A stretch of DNA of 32,149 nucleotides from Gemmatimonadota bacterium (lineage in GTDB: Bacteria > Gemmatimonadota > Gemmatimonadetes > Gemmatimonadales > GWC2-71-9). The position numbers and the translations under genes are program-made. This document shows, in pieces, positions 16,439 to 31,886 of the stretch. Every line of letters starts with the position of its first letter. The stretch's first letter is position 1. The stretch lies in assembly GCA_003222205.1 (NCBI GenBank), contig QHVC01000015.1, positions 1 to 32,149 on the forward strand, read 5' to 3'. The notes under the pieces are model-generated. The model ran no database searches. It was not told where the DNA came from and saw only the letters and a list, made by a program, of their open reading frames with translations.

Positions 16439-17782
16439 TCACTCCAGTTTGAGCCGGGCCATCTTGTAGAACAGCGTTCTGAGGCTCACGCCGAGGCGCT
16501 TGGCGGCGTCACGGCGGTTGCCGCCGGCGGCCTCGAGCGCGCTCTGAATCGCCGCGCGCTCGGCCGCGTCCGCAGCGTCGCGCAGGTTCCCCGGGCCAGC
16601 GCCCGCGGTTGGTGACGCCGCCGCCGGGCCCTTCTGAAGGTCTTCCACGTCGAGCTTGTGCTTGTCGGTAAGCACCGCCCCCCGTTCGATCGCGTGCTCG
16701 AGCTCGCGGACGTTCCCGGGCCAGGGCTGCCGCTCGACCCAGGCGAGCGCCGCGGGCCCAAGCTCGAGCGGCCGTCCCAGCCGGCGGCTGAGCTGAGCCG
16801 CGAACAGCCGGGCGAGTGGCGCGATGTCCTCCGGCCGCTCGCGCAGCGGCGGCAGGTGGATCGCCACGACGTTGAGCCGGTAATACAAGTCCTCGCGAAA
16901 CCGGCCGGCCTTGGCTTCGACCGCGAGGTCCCGCGCCGTCGCCGCCAGCACCCGCACGTCGACCCGCCGGTTGCGCTGGTCGCCGACGCGGCGGATCTCC
17001 CCGTCCTGCAGCACGCGCAGCAGCTTGGCCTGAAGGCCGAGCGGCAGCTCCCCGATCTCGTCGAGCAGCAGGGTGCCGCCGTCGGCCGCTTCGAAGAGCC
17101 CCATCGCGTCCGCGCTGGCGCCGGTGAACGCGCCCCGGGCGTGGCCGAACAACTCCGATTCGAGCAGGCTTTCCGGGATCGCGGCGCAGTTGATCGCCAC
17201 GAAGGGCCCCGCGGCCCGCGGGCCGGCGCGGTGGATCGCCCGGGCGACGACCTCTTTCCCCGTGCCGCTCTCCCCGGTGATCAGCACGGTGCTCTTGTGG
17301 TCGGCGACGCGCGCGACAAGGTCCAGCGCCGCCCGCATCGCCGCACTCTCGGCGACCACCCCCCGCGCGTCAGGGGCGGCGGCGAGCCGCGCCTCGAGCC
17401 CGGCGACGGCGCGACGCAGCCGCTCGCGCTCCTCGGCCTTGCGCAGCGTGAGCACGACCTCGTCCGGGCGGAACGGCTTGGGGATGTAATCGTAGGCGCC
17501 TTCCTTCATGGCGGCGATGGCGGCATCCTCGCCCCCGTAGGCGCTCATCATGATCACCAGCCCTTCCCCACCCCGCTCGCGATACCCACGAAGGAACGCG
17601 AGCCCGTCGAGCCCCGGCATCCGTACGTCACAGAGAATCAAGTCGAACGGCTCGGCCAGTGCCCGCTCCAACCCGCGCCGCCCGTCCCCTTCCGCGGTGA
17701 CAGCGTATCCGGCGTCCGCCAGCAACAGACCCAGCGACTGCCGCAGCCCCGGCTCGTCGTCCACGACCAGGACCCGTGGCAC
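16439..17782 (-). CDS. NtrC-family sigma-54-dependent response regulator (first pair)
   Basis: A 447-residue transcription activator. The receiver domain (1-120) has the acidic pair Asp8-Asp9 and phospho-acceptor Asp52 (in LCDVRMPG). The AAA+ domain has Walker A GESGTGKE, the sigma-54 contact loop GAFTGA, and [10 protein letters not shown]. The C-terminal Fis-type helix-turn-helix ends in [18 protein letters not shown]. The start is GTG 17782, one nt after the stop of its kinase and behind a GGGGGACAGG ribosome site. Eighteen upstream residues in the open frame overlap the kinase and are rejected. Its position between pilA and the minor-pilin operon, both with sigma-54-like promoters, makes it a likely PilR-type activator. 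Targets are inferred. Confidence 0.93.
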
Positions 17783-17783
17783 G

Positions 17784-18929
17784 TTACCTGTCCCCCGTTG
17801 CCGGGAAAAACAACTTGAACACCGCTCCGCCCTCACGGGCCTGCGTCACCCAGATCAGGCCGCCCATTTCGTCCACCGTGCGCGCCACGATGGCCAGCCC
17901 CAGCCCCGTGCCGTGACCCGGCTCCTTGGTCGTGTAGAACGGGTCGAAAATCTTCTCGCGGTCGGCAGGAGGGACGCCGGGACCCGAATCGGCCACGAAC
18001 ACCAGGACGCCCGGCAGGCCCGGGGCGTAATCCACGCGCGACGGCCGCCGCTCGGCCCCGCGGGCGAAGAACGTGATGGCGGGATCGTCGGAGCGGCGGG
18101 GCGCCGCGTGCCCAGGCTCGTAGGCCCAACTGCGGGCGCCCACCACCAGCGCACCGCCGCGCGTCGCATCCACGGCGTTGAGCAGGAGGTTCACGAGCGC
18201 CTGCTCAAGCGCGTGCGCGTGACCGCGGATACGGGGCAGCTCCGCGGGGAGATCGAGGGTCGCCCGCACGGCTTTGATGGCACCCTGCGCTTGGAGCAGC
18301 TCAAAGGCGGCCCGCACCACCACCGCGACGTCCACGGGCTGGAGCGCTTCCTCCCGAGGCTGCGCGTAATCGAGCAGGCTGCGCACGATGGTGTCGATAC
18401 GTTCGAGCTCGCGCGCGAGGCCGGCCATCACTTCGGGGTCGGCACCGCGGCGGCGCAGCACTTCCAGGTAGGTCCCGATGGCGCTCAGCGGATTCCCCAC
18501 CTCGTGCGCCACCCCGGCCGCGAGTCGCCCCACGCTGGCAAGTTTCTCGCTGCGCACCAGCTGGCCCTGCGCGTCGAGCAGGTGGTCGGTCATGCGGTTC
18601 AGGCGTTCGGCAAGCACCGCGAAGTCCCGCGTCTCGGCGCCCGGCGCCCGGGCGGCGAGATCCCCCGCGGCCACAGCGTCCGCCACCGCAATCACCCGCC
18701 CCAACGGCCGCAGGATGTGGCGCCGGACGAGGTAGCCCCCAAACACGATGAAAATCCCCACGTCCAGGGCGACGATCGCGAGCAGCAAGGGCAGCACCTG
18801 GCCGGGGGAGAGATCCGGGGCGAGGGCCTGGACGGCCACGATCGTGCCGACACCGAGCAGCAGCGCGGCGGCAGCGAGGAACGCGAGGTTGAGGAGAAGC
18901 TCCGTGCGGAGCGAGGGCTTCGGCGCCAT
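17784..18929 (-). CDS. Sensor histidine kinase, HAMP type, partner of the adjacent regulator
   Basis: A 381-residue membrane kinase. Two transmembrane helices (about 10-34 and 46-68) enclose only a very short periplasmic loop. A HAMP domain (about 69-121) follows, then HisKA with GVAHEVGNPL (phospho-His142), then HATPase motifs NLLLNAVDAT, DSGPGVP and GTGLGLAIV. With almost no periplasmic domain, it probably senses a membrane or cytosolic signal. It starts at ATG 18929, about 20 nt beyond the pilA1 terminator and without a clear ribosome site or separate promoter. Expression may therefore rely on read-through from pilA1. An open frame upstream (to 19055) runs into pilA1 and is rejected. Confidence 0.9.
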   Translation of the reverse strand: MAPKPSLRTELLLNLAFLAAAALLLGVGTIVAVQALAPDLSPGQVLPLLLAIVALDVGIFIVFGGYLVRRHILRPLGRVIAVADAVAAGDLAARAPGAETRDFAVLAERLNRMTDHLLDAQGQLVRSEKLASVGRLAAGVAHEVGNPLSAIGTYLEVLRRRGADPEVMAGLARELERIDTIVRSLLDYAQPREEALQPVDVAVVVRAAFELLQAQGAIKAVRATLDLPAELPRIRGHAHALEQALVNLLLNAVDATRGGALVVGARSWAYEPGHAAPRRSDDPAITFFARGAERRPSRVDYAPGLPGVLVFVADSGPGVPPADREKIFDPFYTTKEPGHGTGLGLAIVARTVDEMGGLIWVTQAREGGAVFKLFFPATGDR

Positions 18930-18949
18930 GATCGCCGAGGGAATAGGCA

Positions 18950-18981
18950 GAAAAACAGAGCGGCGGGGAAGTCCCCGCCGC
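18950..18981 (-). terminator. Intrinsic terminator of pilA1
   Basis: A 9-bp GC stem GCGGCGGGG with its complement, loop ACTT on the transcribed strand, followed by TCTGTTTTTC. It begins 33 nt past the pilA1 stop. An identical hairpin follows pilA2. Any read-through enters the kinase gene, which starts 20 nt further on. Confidence 0.9.
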
Positions 18982-19014
18982 CCGTTCCGTCCAAGCGTTG
19001 CTACGCTCAGGCCG

Positions 19015-19383
19015 TTAGATGCACTTCGGCTCGCCTTCCTTGTTGGCAGGCGCAAACGACGTCGACCCGACGTAAATCGCGCAGGTCTTGGTCGTGGTGG
19101 TGTGCTTCACCCACGCCGTCCAGCCGTCGGCGGACGTGGCGATGGTCGGGCCCACGACACCACTCGTGGTGGCGAACGCGGTGCCCAGGTTGGTGGTGTA
19201 CTTCACCGAGTCGGCGAAATACGCCTCTTCGGCGGTCACGAGGTTCCGGAGATCCGACTTCATCGAAGCCAGATACGCCTTCTCCTTCGTGTTGGCGAAC
19301 TTCGGAATCGCGATGGCGGCCAAAATACCGATGATCACCACCACGATCAGAAGCTCGATCAGGGTAAAGCCCTTGCGGTTCAT
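19015..19383 (-). CDS. pilA: Type IV major pilin, copy 1
   Basis: A 122-residue type IVa prepilin with leader MNRKG and mature start FTLIELLIVVVIIGILAAIAIPKF (Glu10 is position 5 of the mature chain). The head is short, about 90 residues, with Cys101 and Cys121 placed to form the C-terminal disulfide loop. The head is rich in Thr and Ser (KHTTTTKT, KYTTNLGTAFATTSG), which are possible O-glycosylation sites. It differs from copy 2 at four residues only: 65 (Asn/Asp), 69 (Ala/Asn), 71 (Ala/Asn) and 110 (Phe/Leu). The ATG is preceded by GGGGAGG at 7-nt spacing. A sigma-54 promoter and an intrinsic terminator make it a self-contained unit. Confidence 0.96.
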   Translation of the reverse strand: MNRKGFTLIELLIVVVIIGILAAIAIPKFANTKEKAYLASMKSDLRNLVTAEEAYFADSVKYTTNLGTAFATTSGVVGPTIATSADGWTAWVKHTTTTKTCAIYVGSTSFAPANKEGEPKCI

Positions 19384-19447: not shown

Positions 19448-19463
19448 AGCAAGCCTCATGCCG
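19448..19463 (-). promoter_or_regulatory. Sigma-54 promoter of pilA1
   Basis: On the minus strand CGGCATGAGGCTTGCT, which matches TGGCACG-N4-TTGCW except at the first base and one inner base. The -24 GG and -12 GC are correctly spaced. The predicted start is near 19437, giving a leader of about 54 nt. A block at 19497-19512 conserved in the other copy (GAGGC-TATCT-CTTG) lies 34 bp upstream and may bind the activator. Confidence 0.8.
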
Positions 19464-19613: not shown

Positions 19614-19645
19614 CCAAAACAGAGCGGCGGGGAAGTCCCCGCCGC
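19614..19645 (-). terminator. Intrinsic terminator of pilA2
   Basis: The same 9-bp GCGGCGGGG stem and ACTT loop as the pilA1 terminator, with a shorter T-run (TCTGTTTTGG). It ends the pilA2 transcript before the pilA1 promoter. The duplicated terminator is part of the 664-bp repeat. Confidence 0.88.
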
Positions 19646-19678
19646 CCGTTCCGGACAAGCGTTGCTACGCTCAGGCCG

Positions 19679-20047
19679 TTAGATGCACTTCGGCTCGCCT
19701 TCCTTGTTGGCAGGCGCCAGCGACGTCGACCCAACGTAGATCGCGCAGGTCTTGGTCGTGGTGGTGTGCTTGACCCACGCCGTCCAGCCGTCGGCGGACG
19801 TGGCGATGGTCGGGCCCACGACACCACTCGTGGTGTTGAAGTTGGTGCCCAAGTCGGTAGTGTACTTCACCGAGTCGGCGAAATACGCCTCTTCGGCGGT
19901 CACGAGGTTCCGGAGATCCGACTTCATTGAAGCCAGATACGCCTTCTCCTTCGTGTTGGCGAACTTCGGAATCGCGATGGCGGCCAAAATACCGATGATC
20001 ACCACCACGATCAGAAGCTCAATGAGGGTAAAGCCCTTGCGGTTCAT
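19679..20047 (-). CDS. pilA: Type IV major pilin, copy 2
   Basis: A 122-residue prepilin differing from copy 1 at four positions (Asp65, Asn69, Asn71, Leu110). It has the same leader MNRKG, the same mature Phe-start with Glu5, the same Cys101/Cys121 pair, and Thr/Ser-rich head segments. The frame is open upstream to 20143, but ATG 20047 is chosen because it carries the prepilin leader and the GGGGAGG ribosome site. The clustered changes at 65-71 probably lie in a surface loop of the head. It is closest to the glycosyltransferase genes and has the better sigma-54 promoter, so it may be the more strongly expressed copy (inference). Confidence 0.96.
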   Translation of the reverse strand: MNRKGFTLIELLIVVVIIGILAAIAIPKFANTKEKAYLASMKSDLRNLVTAEEAYFADSVKYTTDLGTNFNTTSGVVGPTIATSADGWTAWVKHTTTTKTCAIYVGSTSLAPANKEGEPKCI

Positions 20048-20110: not shown

Positions 20111-20126
20111 AGCAAGCCGCGTGCCG
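20111..20126 (-). promoter_or_regulatory. Sigma-54 promoter of pilA2
   Basis: On the minus strand CGGCACGCGGCTTGCT, identical to the TGGCACG-N4-TTGCW consensus except for the first base. The predicted start is near 20100, with a leader of about 53 nt. The region upstream, where an enhancer site is expected, runs into the last codons of the TMTC-like gene (stop at 20174-20176). Confidence 0.86.
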
Positions 20127-20173: not shown

Positions 20174-21781
20174 TCACCGCGTGTCGGAATTGAACCCCCT
20201 TAGGCGCACGCTAACTCCTGTTTTTTGCGAGGCACTAGGACGGACGCAATCCCCCGAGGCGCCCCGAAGATAGGCCGCATACCACGCGGCCTCCGCTGGA
20301 TCCCACACCTGGGCGGAGTCCGCCAGCGCCCGGGCGCGTGTACAATCCCGGCGACGCAGATCCAGCAAAAAGCTCGCGCGCAGTGCGATCGGTTTCCGTA
20401 GGTCGAGCGCCCGCGCGCGGGCGACCAGATCGGCCACGCGCACCGTGTCACCCACTCCCAGCAGATAATACGCCCACGCCGCCAAGAGCTGCGGGTCTCG
20501 CGAAAACAGCGAGTCCGCAACTGTGTATTCACGCCGTGCCGCGGCGGCCTCCCCCATGCCGGCGTACACCGCCGCCGCCGAGAAATGCGCGCGGTACGAC
20601 TCCGGGTGCTCCGCCAGCGTGGTGGTCAGCAGCGCGCGGTTGTCCCGCCAGACCGGAAGCCGCAGGGCGGACCGCACACTCAGCGCCAGCACGACGGCGG
20701 CGATCGCCGCCACGGTGCGGCGGTAGCTCAGCGTGCGCGTGGCAATCACCAATGCCCCCATCCCCGCGAGCACCGCGACGAGCAACACGGGCAGGTACAG
20801 GTTGCGCTCGGCGAGCACCACTCCCGAGGCGAAGAGGAGGTTCGAGGTGGGGAGATACGCGAGCGCGGCGACCGCCGCGGCGAAGCAGAGGGCCGGGGCG
20901 CCACGGCGCGTTCGGAGGGCGAACAACAGGACGCCCAGTACGACGACCGCCCCAACCAGCGCCGCCACACCGAACGCCGCCGGCGCGGGGATCACTTGAG
21001 GGGTGTAGTCCGCCGAGAGATCGAGCGGCCAGACCAGGAGGCGCGCAGCCCGCAGGATCGCCGGCAGCGCGACGGCCAGGCGCCCGCTCGCGCCCACGCC
21101 CAGAAACGGTGACGCCACGTCCGCCGTGGCCCCGCGACCCACGGCGTACCAGACGCCGAAGTAGCCGAGGGTGACCGCGGCCAACGACGCGTAGAAGAGA
21201 ATCGGGTAGCGGCGGGTCCCCGCCGGCCGGAGCCAGTCATCAATCATTATCACGACACCGGTAATGACACCATGCTCTTTGCTGAACATGGCGAGGGTCG
21301 CCGCGACGACGGCAGCGACCCACCAGCCGCGTCTCGCCGCCAGGACCGCCGCGAGCAGCCCCGCCGCGACGAGCAGCTCCGCCCGGGAAACGACGCTCGC
21401 TACGCCTTCGACGTGGACCGGGTGCACGGCGAACACCAGCCCCGCGGCCACCGCTCCAACCGACGGCAGCCAGCGCTCGAGTACCAGCACCACGAGCACG
21501 CAGACGATGCCGTGGAGGACGGCATTGACGAAATGGAACCACGACGACGCGCCCGCGCTCAGCTCCCAGTCCACGGCATAGGTGAGGATGGTGACGGGAC
21601 GGTACAGTCCTCCGCGGGCCGGCGGAGGCCAATACGCTTGGTCGAAGGCGCGGATCGCCGCGGGGACCGAGTGCGCAGCGGCGCTGTGTGCGATGATGCC
21701 GCGGTCGTCCTGGACAAAGCTGTACCGTACCGTCGGCAGAAACAGGCCGACGGCGACGAGGAACACCAGGGCAAGTCTCAC
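20174..21781 (-). CDS. TMTC-like GT-C membrane glycosyltransferase with C-terminal TPR region (paralogue 1)
   Basis: A 535-residue polytopic membrane protein. After the first helix comes the acidic pair Asp25-Asp26 (FVQDDRGII), placed like the catalytic acidic motif of GT-C transferases. Next are a YRPVTIL motif, WFHFVNAVLH, and HPVHVEGVASVVSRAEL. The last closely resembles the signature of eukaryotic TMTC proteins, which transfer O-mannose from dolichyl-P-mannose. About ten hydrophobic segments are followed by a C-terminal region of about 150 residues with TPR-like helices. The start is GTG 21781, overlapping the next paralogue's stop in GTGA. It is the paralogue nearest the pilins and the most diverged (Ser replaces Gly in the VVGR motif). 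Donor and acceptor are unknown. Membrane TPR protein of unknown function is the fallback call. Confidence 0.78.
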   Translation of the reverse strand: MRLALVFLVAVGLFLPTVRYSFVQDDRGIIAHSAAAHSVPAAIRAFDQAYWPPPARGGLYRPVTILTYAVDWELSAGASSWFHFVNAVLHGIVCVLVVLVLERWLPSVGAVAAGLVFAVHPVHVEGVASVVSRAELLVAAGLLAAVLAARRGWWVAAVVAATLAMFSKEHGVITGVVIMIDDWLRPAGTRRYPILFYASLAAVTLGYFGVWYAVGRGATADVASPFLGVGASGRLAVALPAILRAARLLVWPLDLSADYTPQVIPAPAAFGVAALVGAVVVLGVLLFALRTRRGAPALCFAAAVAALAYLPTSNLLFASGVVLAERNLYLPVLLVAVLAGMGALVIATRTLSYRRTVAAIAAVVLALSVRSALRLPVWRDNRALLTTTLAEHPESYRAHFSAAAVYAGMGEAAAARREYTVADSLFSRDPQLLAAWAYYLLGVGDTVRVADLVARARALDLRKPIALRASFLLDLRRRDCTRARALADSAQVWDPAEAAWYAAYLRGASGDCVRPSASQKTGVSVRLRGFNSDTR

Positions 21782-23292
21782 CGGGCGTCCCAGGCTCGGG
21801 CCCGCACGAGGAGCCACTCGGCCGTCGCCGTGTCGCCGCGGAAGCGTGCGGCTCTGGCCTGGACACGGAGGTAGTCGCCGCAGCGCAGGCACAGCTGGTC
21901 GGCGCGCGCGAGGAGGGAGTCGGCGAGGGCGGGGCGGCCCAGCGTGAAAGCGGCATCCGCGGCTCCCACAAAGACGCTGGGGTCACGGTCGAAGATCACC
22001 ACCGCATGATGATACGCGTCGAGGGCGCGGACGGGATCACGGGCGTTCTGAAACGCCGCCCCGGCCCGGGCGGGGCCGCGGTAGGAAGCGGGCGAGTCCT
22101 CGAGCATGCTTTGGGTGACGCTTGTGTCTCCCTTCCAGATGGGGACGCGCGTGACTGTTCGGACGGCACTGAGGGCGATCACCAGCGCCCCCAATCCGGC
22201 AAGCCTGCGGCGAGGCCAGCGCGTCGCTGCGGCGCCGAGCGCGAGGGCGAGCCCCACCGAGGGCAGGTACAGCGTCCGCTCGGCCATCAGCACGCCGGTC
22301 GGGAACAGCAGGTTCGCCACGGGGAGGTAGGCGACGGCAATCCACGTCAGCCCCAGGGCCTCGACGCGACGCCCGCGGCGCCACACCCACCACAGCAGAC
22401 CGGCCCAAACTGCCAAGACCGCGAGCCCCAACAGGAAGCGGCCGTCGACCAGCGAGGCGACGAGCGTACGCTCGTCGGGCGAGTAGTCGGCGCGCAGAGT
22501 GAGCGGGAACACGAGGAGCCGGCCGGCGTCTGCGAGCGCCGCGACTGCAGTGAGGCGCACCGCTATGGGGGAGGCACCGAAGAAGACCGGCGCCAGGGCC
22601 TGGGTGCGGGAGTAGGGGTGCAGAACCGCCCAGCGCACGATCATATAGGCCGCGCCGACCAGGGCCCAGGTCGCGACGTAGGCCCCGAGGCGGCGCCTGG
22701 GAGGAGGTGGGCGCACGCCGAGGATCCAGGCCGAGGCGATGAGGCCGGGCACGACCGCGGCGTTCTCCTTGCTCAAGAGGCCCAGCGACAGGGCTGCGGC
22801 CGTCCACCCCACGCTGTCCCGTTCGAGAGCCGCGTAAACCGCCAGCAGGCTGAAGCAGGCGGCCATGAGCTCCGCCCGCCCCACCACGTTCGCCACGGCC
22901 TCGACGTGGACCGGATGGATCGCGAACACGAGCCCCGCGACGAGAGCAGCGGTCTCCCCCGCCCACCGCCGTGCAAGCGCGGCCACGGCAACCGTCGCCC
23001 CGGCGTGCCAGAGCAGATTCACGAAGTGAAACCACATGGCAGTAGCCGTCAGGCGATCGAGGGCGAACCCCATCACGACGAGCGGCCGATACATCTTGCC
23101 CGCGAATTCCGGCGGCCAGTACGGATGGGCGAACGCCCGCCAGATTCCCGACGGTGTGTGGATCAGGGGATTGAAGACGACGATATACACGTCGTCCATC
23201 GCGAACCGGTTCCACAGGGCCCCGAGGTAGACGACGACGGCGCAGGCAGCAACGAAGAGGGAGATCCTCGCTGCGGCGCTCAGTTTGATCAC
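21778..23292 (-). CDS. TMTC-like GT-C membrane glycosyltransferase with C-terminal TPR region (paralogue 2)
   Basis: A 504-residue paralogue of its two neighbours. The acidic pair is Asp33-Asp34 (FAMDDVYIV), with YRPLVVMGFALD at 68-79, WFHFVNLLWHAG at 87-98, and HPVHVEAVANVVGRAEL at 126-142. It has about ten transmembrane segments. The C-terminal 110 residues look TPR-like and include a CLRCGDYLR stretch shared in form with paralogue 3. The start is GTG 23292, overlapping the stop of paralogue 3 by 4 nt (GTGA). Active sites would face the periplasm if it follows the GT-C topology. A polyprenyl-phosphate sugar donor would fit the GT2 synthase in the same operon; this is inferred. Confidence 0.78.
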   Translation of the reverse strand: MIKLSAAARISLFVAACAVVVYLGALWNRFAMDDVYIVVFNPLIHTPSGIWRAFAHPYWPPEFAGKMYRPLVVMGFALDRLTATAMWFHFVNLLWHAGATVAVAALARRWAGETAALVAGLVFAIHPVHVEAVANVVGRAELMAACFSLLAVYAALERDSVGWTAAALSLGLLSKENAAVVPGLIASAWILGVRPPPPRRRLGAYVATWALVGAAYMIVRWAVLHPYSRTQALAPVFFGASPIAVRLTAVAALADAGRLLVFPLTLRADYSPDERTLVASLVDGRFLLGLAVLAVWAGLLWWVWRRGRRVEALGLTWIAVAYLPVANLLFPTGVLMAERTLYLPSVGLALALGAAATRWPRRRLAGLGALVIALSAVRTVTRVPIWKGDTSVTQSMLEDSPASYRGPARAGAAFQNARDPVRALDAYHHAVVIFDRDPSVFVGAADAAFTLGRPALADSLLARADQLCLRCGDYLRVQARAARFRGDTATAEWLLVRARAWDAR

Positions 23293-24797
23293 GGGGGCGA
23301 ACGCAGGCTGCGCTCGTGGGCCGTCAGCCAGTCGGCGGTCACCGAGTCGCCCCGCATCCGGCAGAAGAAGGCTTCACTACGATAGAGCGTGACACACCGC
23401 TCGCACTCCGCATCCGCCCGGCTGAGCAGAGACTCGGCGGCCGCCGGATGGTGCAGCGCATACTCGGCGTGGGCGGCTGCGATGTATACGCGGGCGTCGT
23501 GAGGGAAGATCCCACTCGACACCCGCAGGGCCTGGATTGCGCGATCATAGCGCCCGGACCACAGGTGGTCCCATCCGACGTACCGCCAGGTGAAATACGA
23601 CCGCGGGGCGTCTCTGATTAGTCCCAACGCTACGGAGTGCTGCTCCCGCCAGACGGGAACCCGGAGCACCGAGCGCGTGCCGCCCAGCACAACCACCAGC
23701 GCCGCCACGGCCGCGAGCCGCCGTCCCACCAGCCCCCGGCACGCCGCGCCCAGGGCGAGCGCGAGTCCTACCGACGGCAGATAGAGGGTGCGCTCGGCGA
23801 TGAGGATCTGGATGGGGAACAACAGGTTCGCGACCGGCGAATAGGCGATCGGGATCCAGCCCAGTCCGAACGCCTCGACTTTGCGCCCCCGCCGCCACGC
23901 CACACCGAGCAGCAGGGCCCAGAGGCCCAGCACCAGCACCCCGAACCCCAGCCTGGGGTCGAGCAGTCGGTGCACGGCGGTGCGGTGGTCTGGCGAGTAA
24001 TCGGCACTGAGGGCCAGCGGGAAGAGCAGCAACCGGGCCACATCCCCCAGGGCGGCCGTCGCCGTGAGGCGGATCCCGAGCGCATCCTCGCCCAGGAAGA
24101 CGGGCGCGGTGTTGCCGGGCCCGCGCAGGAATCCGTGAAGCACCGACCAGCGGAGGCCCAGGTACGCCACGCCCAGGATGAGCCAGCTCGCGACGAACAT
24201 CGCGAGCTTGCGCCGCGGGGGCGCGGGCCGCACGCCCAGGAGCCACGCCCAGGCGACCAGGCCGGGGGCTACGGCGCCATTCTCCTTGCTCAGCACGGCG
24301 GCGGCCATCGCCGCCACGCTCCAGCCCACACTGCCGCGCTCGAGGGCGGCGTAGACCGCGAGCAAGGTGAACACAGCGGCCATCAGCTCGTTGCGACCCA
24401 CGACGTTTGCCACCGCCTCGACGTGCACCGGATGGACGGCAAACACGAGGCCGGCGACGAGGCCAGCGGCCTCGCCAGCCCAGCGGCGCGCGAGCACGGC
24501 CACGAGCACGCTGGCACCGACGTGCCACATCAGGTTCACCGCGTGAAACCACGCCGTCGAGTGCGTGGACCAATCGAGCGCGTACGTGGCGACGGTCAAC
24601 GGGCGGTAGGCCGACACGTCGACGGTGGACGGGAAGTAGGACGACCCGAACGCCTGCCAGACCCCGGAGAGGCTGTGCACCACGGGGTTCGCCAGGATGA
24701 TCGAGAGGTCGTCGAGGACGAATCCATGCCACAGGACGGCCACGTAGACGAGCGCCGCCGCCGCGGCGACGAGCAGATACAGACGCCTTGCGCTCAC
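23289..24797 (-). CDS. TMTC-like GT-C membrane glycosyltransferase with C-terminal TPR region (paralogue 3)
   Basis: A 502-residue paralogue. It has Asp29-Asp30 in FVLDDLSII, AYRPLTVATYALDW at 63-76, WFHAVNLMWHVG at 83-94, and HPVHVEAVANVVGRNEL at 122-138. Conserved LFPL-LSADYSPD and LAERTLYLPS-type motifs follow, as in TMTC proteins. About ten transmembrane helices precede a C-terminal TPR-like tail with a CERC pair. The start GTG 24797 overlaps the preceding gene's stop (GTGA). Its sequence is closest to paralogue 2, suggesting duplication inside the operon followed by divergence. Confidence 0.78.
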   Translation of the reverse strand: MSARRLYLLVAAAAALVYVAVLWHGFVLDDLSIILANPVVHSLSGVWQAFGSSYFPSTVDVSAYRPLTVATYALDWSTHSTAWFHAVNLMWHVGASVLVAVLARRWAGEAAGLVAGLVFAVHPVHVEAVANVVGRNELMAAVFTLLAVYAALERGSVGWSVAAMAAAVLSKENGAVAPGLVAWAWLLGVRPAPPRRKLAMFVASWLILGVAYLGLRWSVLHGFLRGPGNTAPVFLGEDALGIRLTATAALGDVARLLLFPLALSADYSPDHRTAVHRLLDPRLGFGVLVLGLWALLLGVAWRRGRKVEAFGLGWIPIAYSPVANLLFPIQILIAERTLYLPSVGLALALGAACRGLVGRRLAAVAALVVVLGGTRSVLRVPVWREQHSVALGLIRDAPRSYFTWRYVGWDHLWSGRYDRAIQALRVSSGIFPHDARVYIAAAHAEYALHHPAAAESLLSRADAECERCVTLYRSEAFFCRMRGDSVTADWLTAHERSLRSPP

Positions 24798-26293
24798 GGG
24801 CGCACCGCGTAGAGCCAACGAGCGTCGGGCCAACCGTGCACAGGCACCAGCCACGACGGGTAGGCGGCGATCAGGCCCCGGAGTTCACGCGCGGACGCCG
24901 ACTGCGGACTCGCGAGCAGAACGTGGGTCACGCCCTGGCGTTCGAGGTACGCCCGCTGCTCGGTGGGGCCGGCCTCGACGACCCTCGCCCCCCGATAGCC
25001 ATAGAGATAGAAGGGGACGGCGGTGCGGTGGCTGTACAGCCACACCAAGGCCTCGTCGTCGGTGGCGACGACGGCGGTTGGCGGAAGCTGCCCCAAGTCG
25101 GGTAGCACCTCCCGGAAGTTCGCTGAGATGTCGCCCGCCGGACCGGTGTAGCCGTGATGCGCGAAGCCCGCGACCTCATACGACGCAAACCCGACCACGA
25201 GGACCCCGGCGAGCACGAGCAGCGGGAGGTGAAGGCGCGCGTGGCGCCATAACGCCGCCGCGCCCGCCGCCCACGCCATGCCCAGCCACGGCAGCACGCC
25301 CCACAGGAACCGATCGGGGGGAAACGGCCACACGGCGAGGATCGCGAGGTAGCCGGCGAGCGCGAGGCCAATGCACGACCGCTGGGCGAGCACGGCGAGA
25401 CCGTACAGACCAACGCCGAGCGCGGGGACCGCGAATAGCCAATGAATTGCTCCAGCAGGGAGCCAGCTCAGGGTGATCGCGGCGAGCGGCCGGGGAAGAT
25501 CGAGAATGCTGCTTCCCAGGGCGCCGAGGCCGGTCTGGCGCAGCACTTCCCCGTAGCTGCCGTAGTTGATCGCGAGCGCGGGGTCAACGGCCCGGCGGTG
25601 GGCGAGCGTCCACCACGCCCACCCGAGACTCGCCAGGAGGACCGGGGTTGCCGCGGCGAGCGCCCGGCGCGCGGGGACGCGGCGCATGAGGAGCAGGAAC
25701 CCGACCACCCCCGCCCCCACCGCGATCCCGATCGTGCGGGTCAGCAGGGTGAGGGCGGCGACGACCCCGGCGGCGACAGCCGCGCCCGCGGGCGAGAGCC
25801 GCGCGGGCGGCCGGTCGCCGATCACGACGGAAATGGCGAGGAGGGCCGCAAACAGCGGCTCGGCAAACAAGACCGACTGCACCACGAGAACAGGGATCGC
25901 CAGGGCGGCCGCGAGGACGATCGCGGGGGCGATCCAACGCGGCACGGCGGGACCCAGGAGGTCCGTGCGCACAGCGTGCCACGCCACCAGGCCCGCCGCC
26001 GCGGCCGCGAGCGACAGGTTCAAGATCTTCGCCGCCATCACCGCGGCCCCGAGAGGGAGGAGCCCGAACAGGGGCGTCAGGATCAGCGGATACAGCGGCG
26101 GGAAGTGGGTCGCGGCCGGGGCACCAGGCAAGTGCAGATAGGCGTAGCCGTGGCCGGAGGCGAGCGAACGGGCGAGCACCGCGTAGAGCCCGTCGTCGTA
26201 GAACACGCCGACGAGTGAGTCGTTCAGGGCGAGGGCGCCCGCGGCAAGGGCGCCCAGGGCGACCGCGACCCCGGCCCGCCCGGCAGCGGTCAC
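24794..26293 (-). CDS. ArnT/PMT-like (GT39-type) membrane glycosyltransferase
   Basis: A 499-residue polytopic protein of the GT-C fold, distinct from the three TMTC-like genes. The first periplasmic loop has [17 protein letters not shown] (Asp33-Asp34), followed by [19 protein letters not shown]. This arrangement is typical of ArnT and PMT_2-family lipid-linked-sugar transferases. About eleven hydrophobic segments precede a soluble C-terminal domain of about 120 residues with [12 protein letters not shown] and [11 protein letters not shown]. The start is GTG 26293, overlapping the GT2 stop by 4 nt. It probably transfers a sugar from a polyprenyl-phosphate donor to an envelope acceptor. The acceptor is unknown. 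Confidence 0.78.
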
Positions 26294-27015
26294 GCCCGGA
26301 GCTTTCGCCAGTCCCCGCGCGGCGGGAAGAGGTTGTAGCGGACGATGTGAAACAGCGCCGCGAGACCGTCGCGCCACGTGATCTTCTTGCCCTCGGCGTA
26401 CGTGCGACCGCTGTACGTGATGGGCAGCTCCCAGATCCGGGCCCCGCATTGCGACAGGCGGGCGGTGATCTCCACCTCGAAGCCGAAGCGATTGGAGGTG
26501 AGCGGTAGGCGCTTCAAGAGATCCGCGCGGACCAGCTTGTAGCAGGTCTCCATGTCCGTGAGGTTGAGATTCGTCAGCATGTTGGACAGGAGCGTGAGCA
26601 ACTGGTTCCCCACCGAGTGCCAGAAGAACAGGACCCGCCGCGGTCCCCCCTGGAAGCGGGAGCCGTAGACGGCGTCGGCGCGGCCGCTGCGGATCGGCTC
26701 GAGCAGCCTGGGGAGGTCGCCGGGATCGTACTCCAGATCGGCGTCTTGCACGACGATCACGTCGCCGGTGGCAGCGGCGATCCCCGAGCGCAGGGCGGCG
26801 CCCTTGCCGCGATTGGTCGGATGATGCACCGCCCGGTCGATGACCCGCTCGGCGACGAGACGGTCGATGACCGCCGCGGTGCCGTCCTTCGAGGCGTCGT
26901 TCACGGCGACGATCTCGAGCTTCAAGGGCACTTCCCGGAGCCGCCGCACGACCGTGGCGAGCGTCGCCTCCTCGTCGTAGGCGGGGACGATGACCGACAG
27001 CGTGGGCTCGCTCAC
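26290..27015 (-). CDS. Family 2 glycosyltransferase, polyprenyl/dolichyl-phosphate mannose synthase-like
   Basis: A 241-residue soluble GT-A enzyme with the layout of DPM1-type synthases. [10 protein letters not shown] lies near the N-terminus and VNDASKDGT at about 38-46. The metal-binding [11 protein letters not shown] has Asp91-x-Asp93. The acceptor-side region is [18 protein letters not shown], then [11 protein letters not shown] and [17 protein letters not shown]. There is no C-terminal transmembrane pair, as in the short DPM1 form. It should move a sugar from a nucleotide donor to polyprenyl phosphate at the inner leaflet. It is the natural donor supplier for the four GT-C proteins that follow. 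The start is GTG 27015, overlapping the methyltransferase stop by 4 nt. Sugar identity cannot be read from sequence. Confidence 0.9.
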
Positions 27016-27743
27016 GGCCGTTCCCCGATGGCGATGAGCGACTGGCCGAGGCGCCAGGGGAGAAAACGCTCCAGCCGGAAGACCGGGACGAGGGCGTCGT
27101 AGAGGGCGAGCGAGGCCGCCGGGATGAGCCGCCGGCGCAGCACCCGGCCGGTGAACCACCACCCGAGGATGCCGGCCAGGTTGAAGTACTCGCGGTGCCG
27201 CAGGGCGAGCCCCGCCGCAGCGAACTTGTCCGCCAGCTCGCGCGGCGTGTAGCGCCGATGGTGGCCGAGGGCCGCGTCGAGCGTCCCGTAGATCCCGGGG
27301 AGCGCCGGGACGAGCAGCAACAGCCGGCCGCCCGGCCGGAGCAGCGCGCGCATCACGGCGAGGGAGCGCTCGTCGTCCCGGACGTGCTCGAGCACGTTCA
27401 GGCAGATGATGGTATCGAACCGCTCGTCGGCGAGCGCCCCGTCCACGGTCGGCAGGTACAACCGGGCGATCTCGACGTTGGCGCGGCCGGCGTATTTCTC
27501 GCGCAGGCGCGCGAGGTAGTAGGGCTCGGTGTCGGTGAGCACGACGCGCTCGCGGTCGAGGAGAAAATCCGAGAGGTTGCCGATGCCGGAGCCGATTTCC
27601 AGCACGTGGGTCCCGACCCAGCGCCGCAACCGGTCGAACATCCAGCGGTTGTAGCGCGGGGCCGCGGCGAGCCGTTCCAGGGTGGCCGCACCGAAGACGT
27701 CCTGGGGCTCAACCGGCTGACGCGGGGGGGGCCGGGGGGGCAT
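27012..27743 (-). CDS. SAM-dependent methyltransferase (class I)
   Basis: About 243 residues. The SAM-binding motif I is [10 protein letters not shown] at 47-56, followed by [10 protein letters not shown] (motif II) and [13 protein letters not shown] (motif IV), then [12 protein letters not shown]. The C-terminal half carries [14 protein letters not shown] and [12 protein letters not shown], as in methyltransferases found beside polyprenyl-sugar synthases. ATG 27743 is chosen because the similarity-like [10 protein letters not shown] begins at residue 30. It overlaps the 3' end of the upstream regulator by 35 nt and passes through two C-runs that encode a Pro-rich start. A start at the internal Met35 is unlikely because it would remove the first helix. 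The substrate is unknown, possibly a lipid-linked sugar or a lipid. Confidence 0.8.
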
Positions 27744-29109
27744 CGCTCTCGTACTTGCTGAGTTTGCGGTACAGGGTGGACGGGTCGATGCCCAACACCT
27801 CCGCGGCGCGGGTCTTGTTGCCCCCCTCGGCCTGGAGCACCCACTGAATGTACGCGCGCTCGATGACCTCGAGTGCGGGGTTGAGATGGGCGCGGTCGGC
27901 CACGAGCGGCTCCGCCTTGCGCTCGGTGACCTTCGCGGGGATTGCCGAGAGGGGGATCGCGTCCGCCTTGGTGAGCACCACGGCGCGCTCCAGCGCATTC
28001 TCGAGCTCGCGCACGTTGCCGGGCCAGTCGTAGACCATGATGGCGTCGATGGCATCCTGCGCCAGCCGTTTGAGGTCGTCCCCGTGCTCCTTGGCGATAC
28101 GCTTCAGGAACGCGTCGACGAAAATGGGGATGTCGTCGCGCCGGTCCCGCAGGGGCGGCAGGTGGATGGCGATCACGTTGAGGCGGTAGTAGAGGTCGGT
28201 GCGGAAGCGGCCGCGCTTGATGTCTTCCTCCAGGTCCCGGTTGGTGGCCGCGACGAGGCGGACGTCCACGGGGATCGCCTCGGTGCCGCCGACGGGGATG
28301 CACTCGCGCTCCTGGAGCACCCGCAGCAGCTTCACCTGGGTCGCCGGCGCCATTTCGCCGATCTCGTCCAAGAAGAAGGTCCCGCCCCGCGCCGCGGCGA
28401 ACAGCCCCTGCTTGTCGCGCACCGCTCCGGTGAACGAGCCTTTCACGTGACCGAACAGCTCCGACTCGAGCAGGCTCTCGGGAAGGGCGCCGCAGTTGAT
28501 GGAAAGGAACGGCCCTTCGGTGCGTGCCGAGAGCTCGTGGATGTAGCGGGCGATGACCTCCTTGCCGGTCCCCGACTCGCCCTGGATCAGCACGGTACTT
28601 TCAGTGGGGGCGACCTGCTTGGCCAGCTGCAGCACGTCCAGAAACAGCCGGGACCTGCCGATCGGCTCGATCAGCCCCGAGCGCTCGCGTCGCCGGATCT
28701 CCTGTTTGAGCTGCTTGTTCTCCGACTTGAGCCGGCGCACCTCGGCGGCCCGGCGGCACAGCGCGACGATTTCGTCGTTGGAGAACGGCTTCTGCACGTA
28801 GTGGAACGCGCCCTGGTTGACCGCCTGGATGGCGCTCTGCAGCGACGCCTGCGCGGTCATGAGCACCACGGGGGTCTCCGGATCCTGGTCCTTGACCGCC
28901 GCGAGAATGTCGATGCCGCTGACCTGCGGCATGCGGATGTCCGTGAGAACGATGTCCGGCGCGGAGTTCCTGAGGGCCTCGAGGCCGGCCTTGCCGCCCT
29001 GCGCCGTGGCGACGTCGAATCCCTCGTTTTTCAGGAGGATGCGCAGCGTGTCGAGGATGCCCTGCTCATCGTCGATGACGAGGATCGAGGGTTGGGGGGT
29101 GGGGCTCAT
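27709..29109 (-). CDS. NtrC-family sigma-54-dependent response regulator (second pair, PilR-like)
   Basis: A 466-residue activator. The receiver has Asp13-Asp14 and phospho-acceptor Asp57 (LTDIRMPQ). A short coiled linker follows, then the AAA+ domain with Walker A GESGTGKE, the sigma-54 contact loop as GSFTGA (Ser in place of Ala), FFLDEIGEMA and RFRTDLYYRL. A Fis-type helix-turn-helix (NKTRAAEVLGIDPSTLYRKL) ends the fold, with a Pro/Ala tail after it. ATG 29109 shares one base with the kinase stop (TGATG). With the adjacent six-helix kinase it has the classical PilS-PilR layout. The pilin promoters about 9 kb downstream are plausible targets. Confidence 0.92.
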   Translation of the reverse strand: MSPTPQPSILVIDDEQGILDTLRILLKNEGFDVATAQGGKAGLEALRNSAPDIVLTDIRMPQVSGIDILAAVKDQDPETPVVLMTAQASLQSAIQAVNQGAFHYVQKPFSNDEIVALCRRAAEVRRLKSENKQLKQEIRRRERSGLIEPIGRSRLFLDVLQLAKQVAPTESTVLIQGESGTGKEVIARYIHELSARTEGPFLSINCGALPESLLESELFGHVKGSFTGAVRDKQGLFAAARGGTFFLDEIGEMAPATQVKLLRVLQERECIPVGGTEAIPVDVRLVAATNRDLEEDIKRGRFRTDLYYRLNVIAIHLPPLRDRRDDIPIFVDAFLKRIAKEHGDDLKRLAQDAIDAIMVYDWPGNVRELENALERAVVLTKADAIPLSAIPAKVTERKAEPLVADRAHLNPALEVIERAYIQWVLQAEGGNKTRAAEVLGIDPSTLYRKLSKYESDAPPAPPASAG

Positions 29110-30707
29110 CAGGCGGCTTCCTCCTTCCGGCGGGCGGCAGGGAAGATCACGGTGAAGGTGGTTCCCCGCCCCACGGCCGTATCCACCAGCACGAGGCCCT
29201 TGTGGGCGTCGACGGCGCGCTGGACGATAGCGAGGCCCAGCCCGGTCCCACCCACGCGGCCCGTCACGAACGGCTCGAACAGCCGGGTACGCACGTTATC
29301 GGGGATCCCCGGCCCGTTGTCGGTCACCTGGAGGGAGACGGGGTTCTCGATCCCCGCCCGATCCAGCACGACCCCCGGGGACGCACGGCCGGTCCGCACC
29401 GTGATACGCGCGCCCGGCCCGGTGGCCTGCACGGCGTTGAGTACCAAGTTCGAGACCACCCGGTGCAGCAGGTCTTCGTCGCCCTCCATCAGCGTAGGGC
29501 TGCCCGCGAGCTCGATGACCGCGTCGGCCGGGTAGTCGGGGTGTTCGCGCACGAGCCGGATCGCGGCCCCGGCCACCTCACGCAGGTCCACCGGGCGGCA
29601 CTCGGTGACGCGGACCCGGGAGAAGTCGAGGAATTCCGACAACAGGCGGGAGAGGCGATCCGCCTCCCGCACGATCAGGTTGCCGAGGAACTTCTCGTCG
29701 GGGTTCGCGCGCGTGGAGCGGGACAACTGCTCCACCGAGGAGCGGATCGAGGCCAGCGGGTTCTTGATCTCGTGCGCGAGGCTGGAGGACAGCTCGGCCA
29801 CCGCCTCGAGCCGCTCGGCCCGCAGGTGCAGCTCCTCGAGGCGTTTGGTGTCGGAGATGTCGGTGAAGATCGCCGTGACGCGGGGCGGGGCGTCCGACTG
29901 GCCCTCCAGTGTCGTGGTCGTGACGCCGACCGGAAACGCCCGGTCGGGACGATGGACGGTGGCCTCGACCCGCATCAGGCGCACGCCCCGGCGCGCCGTG
30001 GCCGTGAGCGCGGCCCAGAACTCCGGGGCAATGTGGGCGATCTCCGGCATGATGGGCCGCTCGCGCCACTGGTCCGCCCGCACGCCGAGGAGCTCTTCGG
30101 CGGCGGGGTTGCAGTAGAGCAGCTTCCCCTCGTGGTCCACGGTGAGCACGCCGGTCCGCAGGTTCTCGAGCACGTCCGACGCTTCGAGGCGCACCTGGCG
30201 GACTTCCGCGGCCAGGGCCTCCCGCTCCGCCCCCATGACCGAGACGCGACTCGCGATGAAGGCCGTGACCGCGGCGATGGCGCCGAAGATCCCGAGCTGG
30301 AACCAGATTCCCGAGGCGATGGCGGTGCGGTGACCGAAGAAGACATCGGCGAAGTACACCAGGCCGGCGAGGATCGTGACGAGGGCGGTACTCGTGGGCC
30401 GCATCAGCAGCGCGGTCGCGGCGATGAGCAGCACATACAGCCCGGTGAAATCACTCTCCGGGCCGCCGGTCATGTGCACGACGGTGGTAATCAGAGCGAC
30501 GTCAAAGAGTGCCTGGAGGTAGAGGAAGTTCTCCCCGAGCGCGCGGTTGCGGACGTGGGTGTGCCAGTACGAGGCGGCGGTCACGACCAGCGCCGCCAGC
30601 AGCATCAAGGAGGTGACGAGGATGTCGAGCGGCGCGGCCACCTGGACCTTGAGGGCGGCGCTCAGGTAGATGGCGATGGCCACGCACATCCGCCCCAAGT
30701 AGACCAT
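29109..30707 (-). CDS. PilS-like membrane sensor histidine kinase with PAS domain
   Basis: A 532-residue kinase. Residues 1-155 form about six transmembrane helices with almost no loops, as in PilS. A PAS domain (about 175-290) follows, then HisKA with SSSLAHEIKNPLASIRSS (phospho-His312) and HATPase with NLVLNAVQAT, DNGPGIP, GGTGLGLAIV. In PilS of Pseudomonas the membrane helices sense pilin inventory; that role is carried over here by analogy. ATG 30707 is used. The frame is open 24 codons further up but contains no ATG, GTG or TTG. A CTG there with an adjacent AGGAG is a remote alternative. It is transcribed from the promoter at 30823-30851. Confidence 0.93.
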   Translation of the reverse strand: MVYLGRMCVAIAIYLSAALKVQVAAPLDILVTSLMLLAALVVTAASYWHTHVRNRALGENFLYLQALFDVALITTVVHMTGGPESDFTGLYVLLIAATALLMRPTSTALVTILAGLVYFADVFFGHRTAIASGIWFQLGIFGAIAAVTAFIASRVSVMGAEREALAAEVRQVRLEASDVLENLRTGVLTVDHEGKLLYCNPAAEELLGVRADQWRERPIMPEIAHIAPEFWAALTATARRGVRLMRVEATVHRPDRAFPVGVTTTTLEGQSDAPPRVTAIFTDISDTKRLEELHLRAERLEAVAELSSSLAHEIKNPLASIRSSVEQLSRSTRANPDEKFLGNLIVREADRLSRLLSEFLDFSRVRVTECRPVDLREVAGAAIRLVREHPDYPADAVIELAGSPTLMEGDEDLLHRVVSNLVLNAVQATGPGARITVRTGRASPGVVLDRAGIENPVSLQVTDNGPGIPDNVRTRLFEPFVTGRVGGTGLGLAIVQRAVDAHKGLVLVDTAVGRGTTFTVIFPAARRKEEAA

Positions 30708-31132: not shown

Positions 31133-31886
31133 CTAGTTGGGAATCGCGGTCCCGTGGCAGGCGGTGCAGACCTCGGGGTTCTTGCGCCGCAACCGCGACG
31201 CGTCGAAGCCGGGACCGTGCGGGTTGATGTGCCGACCGCCGACGGCGGAGTGGCAGGTCAGACAATCACGCTCGACATGGCACGCTACGCACGTCTCCAA
31301 ACTCTGCCGCGCCGCCTGGCCGTGGCCTGCGACGAAGAATTGCTTGGCATCGTGGTAGCCTCCCCGCAGCGTCCTTCTCGCCACCAACCCCGACGCGGCG
31401 TGGCAGCTCGAACAGAAGCTCCCGACGTTGTGGCAGTCACTGCACGAGGTCTCCCGCGCGTAGGCCGCCGCGGGGTGGCGGGCGAGAAAACCGACGGGGT
31501 GATACCCCGGCGCAGCGGCCGCTTGGGGGCGATGGCACTCGAGACAGTCGGCCCGGACGTGACACCCGGCGCAGGTCGTCGACGCCGCGGACGCCGGGCC
31601 GGCGTGGCGGTCGGCGAAGTTCGCCCCGTGCGCGGCGGGCGGTTGCCGCCCCGCGATCGCCAACGACCGCGCGTCGCGTGCCAGCGCAGCGACGGTCGGG
31701 AGCGCCGGCTCATCCACGTGACATTGGAGGCAGAAGTCGCGTGCGCGGCGTCCCGCCGGCGACGAGCGTAAACAGGAAGATTTGCTCGGCGGCGGCCGGG
31801 GCACTGAGCAACCGGGCCGCCAACCCAGCCGCGAGCCCCGCGGCGGCCAGGAGGGCGATTGGGGCGCGCTGCAGGAGGCGACGCAT
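31133..31886 (-). pseudogene. Octaheme c-type cytochrome with a frameshift after the signal peptide
   Basis: The long frame (31133 to about 31804) encodes eight CxxCH heme-binding motifs: CLQCH, CAGCH, CLECH, CSDCH, CSSCH, CVACH, CLTCH and CTACH. It has no export signal. A good Sec signal peptide (MRRLLQRAPIALLAAAGLAA..., cleavage after APAAA) is encoded just upstream from ATG 31886 in another frame, which stops soon after. Removing one G from the GGG at 31752-31754 would join them as ...LVAGGRRARDFCLQCH. I therefore read this as one gene with a 1-nt insertion, either a real mutation or a sequencing error. An intact product would be a periplasmic electron carrier or multiheme reductase subunit. 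It follows the globin gene by 14 nt. Confidence 0.75.

Follow-up and report, generated by a model that had tools for sequence, protein, structure and literature searches.

Type IV pilin O-glycosylation is the function we propose for six co-directional genes in a stretch of 32,149 nucleotides (the window; contig QHVC01000015.1, GenBank assembly GCA_003222205.1) from a Gemmatimonadota metagenome-assembled genome (MAG) of 2.97 Mb and 98.6% completeness, whose relatives are soil Gemmatimonadetes MAGs. The genes encode a methyltransferase, a family 2 glycosyltransferase (GT2), a lone glycosyltransferase of the GT-C fold and three GT-C proteins with tetratricopeptide repeats (TPR), here called GTC_A, GTC_B and GTC_C, which resemble the eukaryotic TMTC transferases. 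We consider it probable that they form a dedicated module that modifies pilin in the periplasm and is fed by a polyprenyl-phosphate sugar. This prediction draws on gene content and translational coupling, the GT-C fold and its conserved catalytic residues, the linkage with pilA, the co-occurrence of GT2 with TMTC-like genes, and the enrichment of serine and threonine in the linked pilins.

The six-gene set occupies the minus strand from 27743 to 20174, between pilSR and pilA2-pilA1, and is hosted by a full type IV pilus locus, with two pilA genes and a second histidine kinase/response regulator pair. Along the minus strand, pilS and pilR are followed by the S-adenosylmethionine (SAM)-dependent methyltransferase, GT2, lone GT-C, GTC_A, GTC_B and GTC_C genes, and then by pilA2, pilA1, a histidine kinase, a sigma-54 regulator, minor pilins, PilM, PilN and the secretin. 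The end of GTC_C (20174) and the start of pilA2 (20047) are separated by 126 bp; the orientation, the gene order and this distance are all as described in the initial annotation of the window. With the likely starts, all five junctions within the set (methyltransferase/GT2, GT2/GT-C, GT-C/GTC_A, GTC_A/GTC_B, GTC_B/GTC_C) consist of a four-nucleotide GTGA start/stop overlap, so that the six genes constitute one translational unit.

The position beside pilA, noted in the window by the initial annotation, is kept across Gemmatimonadota. TMTC-like genes are present in 38 of the 61 genomes of the GTDB family and in 131 of the 249 genomes of the phylum. Regions were fetched around TMTC matches, and around pilA in TMTC-less genomes, and annotated with profiles, the TMTC-bearing regions being picked by their TMTC match and not by pilA. 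A TMTC-like gene lies less than 3 kb from pilA in 71 of the 96 TMTC-bearing regions (less than 400 bp in 69; median gap, 162 bp), and the remaining regions mostly represent contig ends, a separate "solo" clade and an outgroup class. Among 50 complete pilR-to-pilA intervals, the median length is 5.4 kb where a TMTC-like gene is present (n=40) and 323 bp where it is not (n=10), and GT2 is found in 38/40 of the former versus 2/10 of the latter (Fisher 3e-6). The contrast between long, GT2-bearing intervals and short, TMTC-less ones indicates that the module comes and goes as one block while the neighbors on either side stay in place.

If pilin is the acceptor, module-linked pilins should offer more serine and threonine, and these residues indeed make up 24.5% of the globular part of pilins encoded beside the module, versus 17.8% without it; the value for pilA2 is 24.7%. 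In a phylogenetic generalized least squares analysis, whose correction for relatedness rests on a one-gene tree (PilR), the excess was supported with p=2.4e-7 under a fitted lambda and with t=3.45 under Brownian motion. Of the 20 residues, serine and threonine rise the most in the linked pilins. According to per-column tests that ignore relatedness, the excess falls at mature positions 58, 59, 62, 63 and 67, in the alpha-beta loop that follows directly on the N-terminal helix. The alpha-beta loop also harbors the glycosylated Ser63 of Neisseria pilin and the arabinofuranose sites of Pseudomonas group IV pilins. Serine and threonine content tracks the module in the pilins themselves, a correlative relationship by which the acceptor, initially given as pilins or other exported proteins, can be narrowed to the former.

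The three GT-C/TPR proteins were compared with the published table of TMTC motifs M1 to M7 (PMC7801869) by counting residues over 66 homologues. Both aspartates of M1 (DD, first exoplasmic loop) are present in 66/66 homologues, as are the KE of M4 (KE(T/Q)xxT) and the glutamate and arginine of M7 (ERxxY), whose tyrosine is found in 55/66; in M4, the T/Q position that follows is mostly N, H or S. M3 (RxD/E) retains its arginine in 50/66 and an acidic residue in all 66. From M2 (SHKSYRP), YRP is retained (Y 60/66, R 66/66, P 66/66), while the S-H-K-S positions are rich in G, A and S and no conserved H or K, the mannose contact, was found across the 66 homologues. The metal motif M5 (DW) has its aspartate in 61/66 and tyrosine in place of tryptophan in 66/66, and in M6 (PxxP) the second proline is kept in 53/66 and the first is absent. 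The motifs follow each other in the same order as in TMTC, with comparable spacing.

Profile searches and structure prediction are consistent with this assignment. Beside TPR matches, GTC_A and GTC_B, which are 55% identical, match TMTC_DUF1736 weakly (0.0025 and 0.011, under the cut-off of 27 bits), and GTC_C and the lone GT-C protein have no Pfam match of their own. Among the 66 homologues, TMTC_DUF1736 appears at E<=1 in 36 (best 0.0019, the curated gathering score not being reached) and TPR_19 in 40. A genome search with Pfam PF08409 gave 0/21 over the cut-off and likewise none in control genomes, so that it is uninformative; the full GT-C/TPR profile retrieved only TPR proteins among its best 60 PDB sequences. 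For GTC_B, AlphaFold2 gave a model with a GT-C fold (mean pLDDT 95.1), whose best full-length Foldseek matches in the PDB are AglB (3waj), ArnT with undecaprenyl phosphate (5f15), AftB and ALG9, all of them weak (E 0.001-0.01, TMq 0.33-0.43) and mixed in rank with TPR proteins whose similarity is to the tail. Counted by inspection and not by a topology predictor, the helices and motif loops of the model fit 11 transmembrane helices followed by six or seven TPR-like helices, with DD behind helix 1 and the TPR portion behind the final membrane helix, an arrangement shared with TMTC. Evidence from motifs, fold and profiles places these proteins among the GT-C/TMTC-like transferases, as initially proposed, with a predicted transferase activity. 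No TMTC-like match was found in a plasmid collection, and Geobacter GSU1498, considered as a parallel, was set aside, as it is filed in a polysaccharide cluster and offers no TMTC evidence.

The other members of the set also bear out their first assignments. The GT2 protein (Pfam/NCBIfam 2.1e-34) carries a D-A-D motif and no C-terminal membrane helices; its best PDB sequence match is the archaeal dolichyl-phosphate-mannose (Dol-P-Man) synthase 5mlz (3.5e-15), followed by sll0501/GtrB-type (7e-12) and ArnC (1.5e-10) enzymes. The latter two scores lie not far below the best one, and the GT2 family does not tell which sugar is used. The similarity to DPM1, GtrB and ArnC upholds the original suggestion of a polyprenyl-phosphate-sugar synthase; a Dol-P-mannose donor, implied by the same suggestion, is not supported, given the generic resemblance to DPM, the reduction of M2 to YRP and the replacement of DW by DY. 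A profile of the lone GT-C protein gave nothing meaningful against PDB sequences, and the fold search was used instead: its AlphaFold2 model (pLDDT 90.9) has a GT-C fold with DDG in the first periplasmic loop, and Foldseek matched it to the oligosaccharyltransferase STT3, AglB, ArnT (5ezm, 8e-6) and ALG9/12, in keeping with the earlier label "ArnT-like". Orthologues of this protein match GT87 in 8/26 cases. In one TMTC-less genome (region L086), the pilR-pilA interval still contains GT2 and the lone GT-C gene, a layout which suggests that the lone GT-C protein can have a role without TMTC. The methyltransferase (1.8e-16) was recognised in 11/40 complete TMTC-bearing intervals and 0/10 TMTC-less ones, and possibly acts on the sugar. 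No flippase gene lies within the module.

The triple TMTC-like set, which had been put forward as the system itself, is not its hallmark. One TMTC-like gene is the common state, with a single copy in 42 of the 71 pilA-linked regions, two copies in 23 and three in 6. In a tree of 142 homologues, the clade that lies directly against pilA holds GTC_C and a separate clade holds GTC_A and GTC_B, and the tree and copy counts together identify the triple set of the window as a local expansion by duplication. The genome of the window has a fourth TMTC-like gene (G000:C149 = L080:2865-4427), which adjoins guaA and a dihydrouridine synthase gene (dus); this context is shared by L083 (regions L080, L082 and L083), and these solo genes form their own clade and show no pilin linkage. 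In regions L007 and L159 (also L006 and L008), a TMTC-like gene stands among tandem pilA copies, which suggests that particular transferases are paired with particular pilins. In another class of the phylum (L148, L151, L152), long TMTC-like genes with open frames of ~590-920 amino acids stand in tandem triplets, and the regions examined gave no PilA or PilR match. In the outgroup class (f5), TMTC-like genes occur in 6/6 genomes, and the f5 regions examined contained no PilA or PilR match.

Based on family assignments and on TMTC topology, glycosylation could proceed as follows. On the cytoplasmic side of the membrane, GT2 would load a sugar onto undecaprenyl phosphate, and a flippase encoded outside the module would bring the lipid-linked sugar to the periplasmic face. 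There, one or more of the TMTC-like enzymes (GTC_C, and also GTC_A and GTC_B) would act before the pilus is assembled and move the sugar onto serine or threonine of prepilin or pilin that is still anchored in the membrane. Catalysis would fall to the DD active site on their first periplasmic loop, and the periplasmic TPR tail would presumably grip the acceptor. The lone GT-C protein may lengthen the glycan by adding more sugars, or it may act at different sites or on variant pilins, and the same may hold for paralogous GT-C/TPR copies where present; the methyltransferase would methylate or cap the sugar. Several observations weigh against this proposal. Gene neighborhood is no proof of substrate, and the solo TMTC-like gene beside guaA/dus, away from any pilin, indicates that membership of this family does not by itself imply a pilin link. 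Only 6/10 phylogenetically independent pairs differ in serine and threonine content in the predicted direction (Wilcoxon p=0.084), and the comparison of linked and unlinked pilins within a genome is marginal (11 genomes, p=0.042). Two TMTC-bearing intervals have no recognised GT2, and a search for GtrA-type flippases (PF04138), which matched 7 control genomes and did not extend to MATE/SMR flippases, gave no match in this genome of 98.6% completeness.

Different explanations can be given for the same gene neighborhood. The GT-C enzymes might glycosylate another surface target, such as lipid A/O-antigen, a pilus-associated polysaccharide, minor pilins or the secretin, and share only their regulation with pilA. 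Lipid and polysaccharide acceptors are indeed frequent among GT-C fold enzymes, including ArnT and GT136 (PMC11127046), the lone GT-C protein, which has no TPR domain, could act on a glycan, and the solo TMTC-like gene adjoins housekeeping genes; given, however, that a TMTC-like gene stands against a pilin gene in 71 regions and is absent where pilR abuts pilA, and that pilin serine and threonine content follows the gene, we regard such a target as improbable. Still less credible, and in our view highly improbable, is that the TMTC-like proteins have lost sugar transfer and serve, in the manner of TfpY or TPR proteins, as chaperones or in assembling the pilus. The C-terminal TPR would fit such a role, and TfpY is a precedent for a non-enzymatic pilin accessory gene beside pilA (PMC11841053), but the invariance of DD, KE, RP and ER in 66/66 diverse homologues and the accompanying donor synthase in 38/40 intervals would be unexpected for a dead enzyme.

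A strict bacterial counterpart of the Dol-P-Man/TMTC system, in which GT2 makes undecaprenyl-phosphate-mannose and mannose is placed on pilin, is a special case that overlaps with the proposed pilin glycosylation, and one that we hold to be doubtful while giving it some weight. It is favored by the archaeal Dol-P-Man synthase as best PDB match of GT2 and by the resemblance of the transferases to the TMTC family; it is opposed by the change of DW to DY, by the close scores of GtrB- and ArnC-type enzymes in a GT2 family that is silent on the sugar, and by the missing H and K of M2, a mild argument against mannose, which remains one candidate sugar among others. Finally, the linkage with pilA could reflect phylogenetic inertia and carry no functional meaning. 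The f5 outgroup class, where TMTC-like genes are found in every genome and away from PilA and PilR in the regions examined, points in this direction, and so does the clustering of state changes on the PilR tree (10 versus 15 expected by shuffling). On the other hand, these are at least ten state changes, almost all positive genomes of the class preserve the linkage, and GT2 and TMTC-like genes co-occur, so that we give inertia hardly any credence.

The pilin genes are probably expressed separately from the six-gene module, judging from upstream and downstream signals. Sigma-54-like sites lie at matching distances of 79-80 bp upstream of the start codons of both pilA genes, and these promoters, together with the strong terminator-like hairpin after pilA2, argue for expression of the pilins apart from the module. 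In relatives, 58/125 sequences upstream of pilA reach 9 or all 10 of the specified sigma-54 bases, compared with 0/625 shuffles; a sigma-70 promoter scan found no site. Both pilA sites share a locus with two sigma-54 response regulators. The coordinates of all features are collected in Table 1. Just upstream of pilS, at window positions 31133-31804, a multi-CXXCH (cytochrome c-like) protein is encoded.

Table 1. Features of the pilin locus, in window coordinates.
Feature	Coordinates	Strand	Basis or remark
pilS-type histidine kinase, upstream anchor	29109..30707	-	Pfam 6TM_PilS, PAS, HisKA, HATPase; kept upstream of module in relatives
pilR-type sigma-54 response regulator	27709..29109	-	Pfam Response_reg + Sigma54_activat
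SAM-dependent methyltransferase	27012..27743	-	Methyltransf_12; start uncertain; overlaps pilR end
GT2, predicted polyprenyl-phosphate-sugar synthase (DPM1/GtrB/ArnC type)	26290..27015	-	Glycos_transf_2
Lone GT-C transferase without TPR, ArnT-like fold	24794..26293	-	AlphaFold2 model + Foldseek
GTC_A, TMTC-like GT-C/TPR protein	23289..24797	-	motifs M1, M3, M4, M7, YRP of M2
GTC_B, TMTC-like GT-C/TPR protein	21778..23292	-	AlphaFold2 model + Foldseek
GTC_C, TMTC-like GT-C/TPR protein, in clade directly against pilA	20174..21781	-	tree of 142 homologues
Sigma-54 (-24/-12) promoter of pilA2, CGGCACGCGGCTTGC	20112..20126	-	9/10 specified bases
Major-type pilin pilA2, predicted acceptor with an alpha-beta loop rich in Ser/Thr	19679..20047	-	N_methyl 1.2e-9
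Intrinsic-terminator-like hairpin after pilA2	19622..19647	-	11 pairs, 10 G-C
Sigma-54-like promoter of pilA1, CGGCATGAGGCTTGC	19449..19463	-	8/10 specified bases
pilA1 pilin	19015..19383	-	97% identical to pilA2
Second histidine kinase, downstream anchor	17784..19055	-	Pfam HAMP/HisKA/HATPase; kept in relatives
Second sigma-54 response regulator, downstream anchor	16439..17836	-	kept in relatives

Taken further, the data lean slightly toward a phylum-wide scenario, in which a bacterial TMTC relative has turned into a dedicated, locus-specific pilin O-glycosyltransferase, mostly with an adjacent GT2 and in some cases with tandem duplicates matched to several pilins. If this is true, the module would offer a genetically simple bacterial model of protein-acceptor choice by GT-C/TPR enzymes; it would also suggest that TMTC-type transferases are older than cadherins. 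With this module, the whole phylum joins the bacteria with candidate dedicated pilin glycosylation. Human TMTC1-4 are disease-linked O-mannosyltransferases whose own transferase activity was undemonstrated as of a 2021 sequence study (PMC7801869). Short bacterial relatives with a candidate acceptor one gene away would allow enzyme, donor and acceptor to be tested together. A pilin glycan can moreover block pilus-binding phages, as demonstrated for Pseudomonas TfpO/TfpW (PMC11841053).

Several parts of the proposed system have precedents. Pilin glycosyltransferases encoded at pilA are known from TfpO/TfpW (PMC11841053), units of GT2 and GT-C enzymes have been described (PMC11127046), and prokaryotic TMTC homologues have been mentioned with no function given (PMC7801869). 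Their combination into a pilin module that spans a phylum did not turn up in the literature searched, which contained no paper with both "TMTC" and "pilin" as whole words and none joining Gemmatimonadota, type IV pili and glycosylation.

With the three-component systems (GtrA/GtrB/Gtr, GT136, lipoteichoic/wall teichoic acid), the module shares a polyprenyl-phosphate-sugar synthase and a GT-C transferase in one unit, but those systems modify a glycan, whereas a protein acceptor is predicted here and the flippase gene is not in the module. Predicted periplasmic O-glycosylation of pilin is a feature in common with the PglL/TfpO-type O-oligosaccharyltransferases of Neisseria and Pseudomonas. These are, unlike the module, Wzy-like enzymes that use undecaprenyl-diphosphate-linked oligosaccharides. 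Caulobacter FlmG combines a TPR-type substrate-binding domain with a glycosyltransferase and thus, as in the module, places a helical repeat on the glycosyltransferase of a filament subunit. FlmG is, in contrast to the module, cytoplasmic and not a GT-C enzyme. It acts as a glycosyltransferase for flagellin (PMC7591256). Pseudomonas aeruginosa TfpW, compared by description only, is likewise a GT-C enzyme encoded beside (group IV) pilA and predicted to modify its own pilin at serine or threonine from a lipid donor; it uses D-arabinofuranose, and the module adds a GT2 donor synthase, a second GT-C protein, a methyltransferase and the TPR tail. From eukaryotic TMTC1-4, the Dol-P-Man:protein O-mannosyltransferases of cadherins, the bacterial proteins differ in their length (~500-650 amino acids), in having few TPRs instead of about ten, in the reduced M2, the DY for DW and the missing first proline of M6, and in their linkage to pilin and not cadherin. 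What they share with TMTC1-4 is an N-terminal GT-C domain, DD in the first loop, KE and ERxxY in the same order and loops, a weak match to the DUF1736 loop, and a layout that fits 11 membrane helices with the C-terminal TPR tail on the exoplasmic side.

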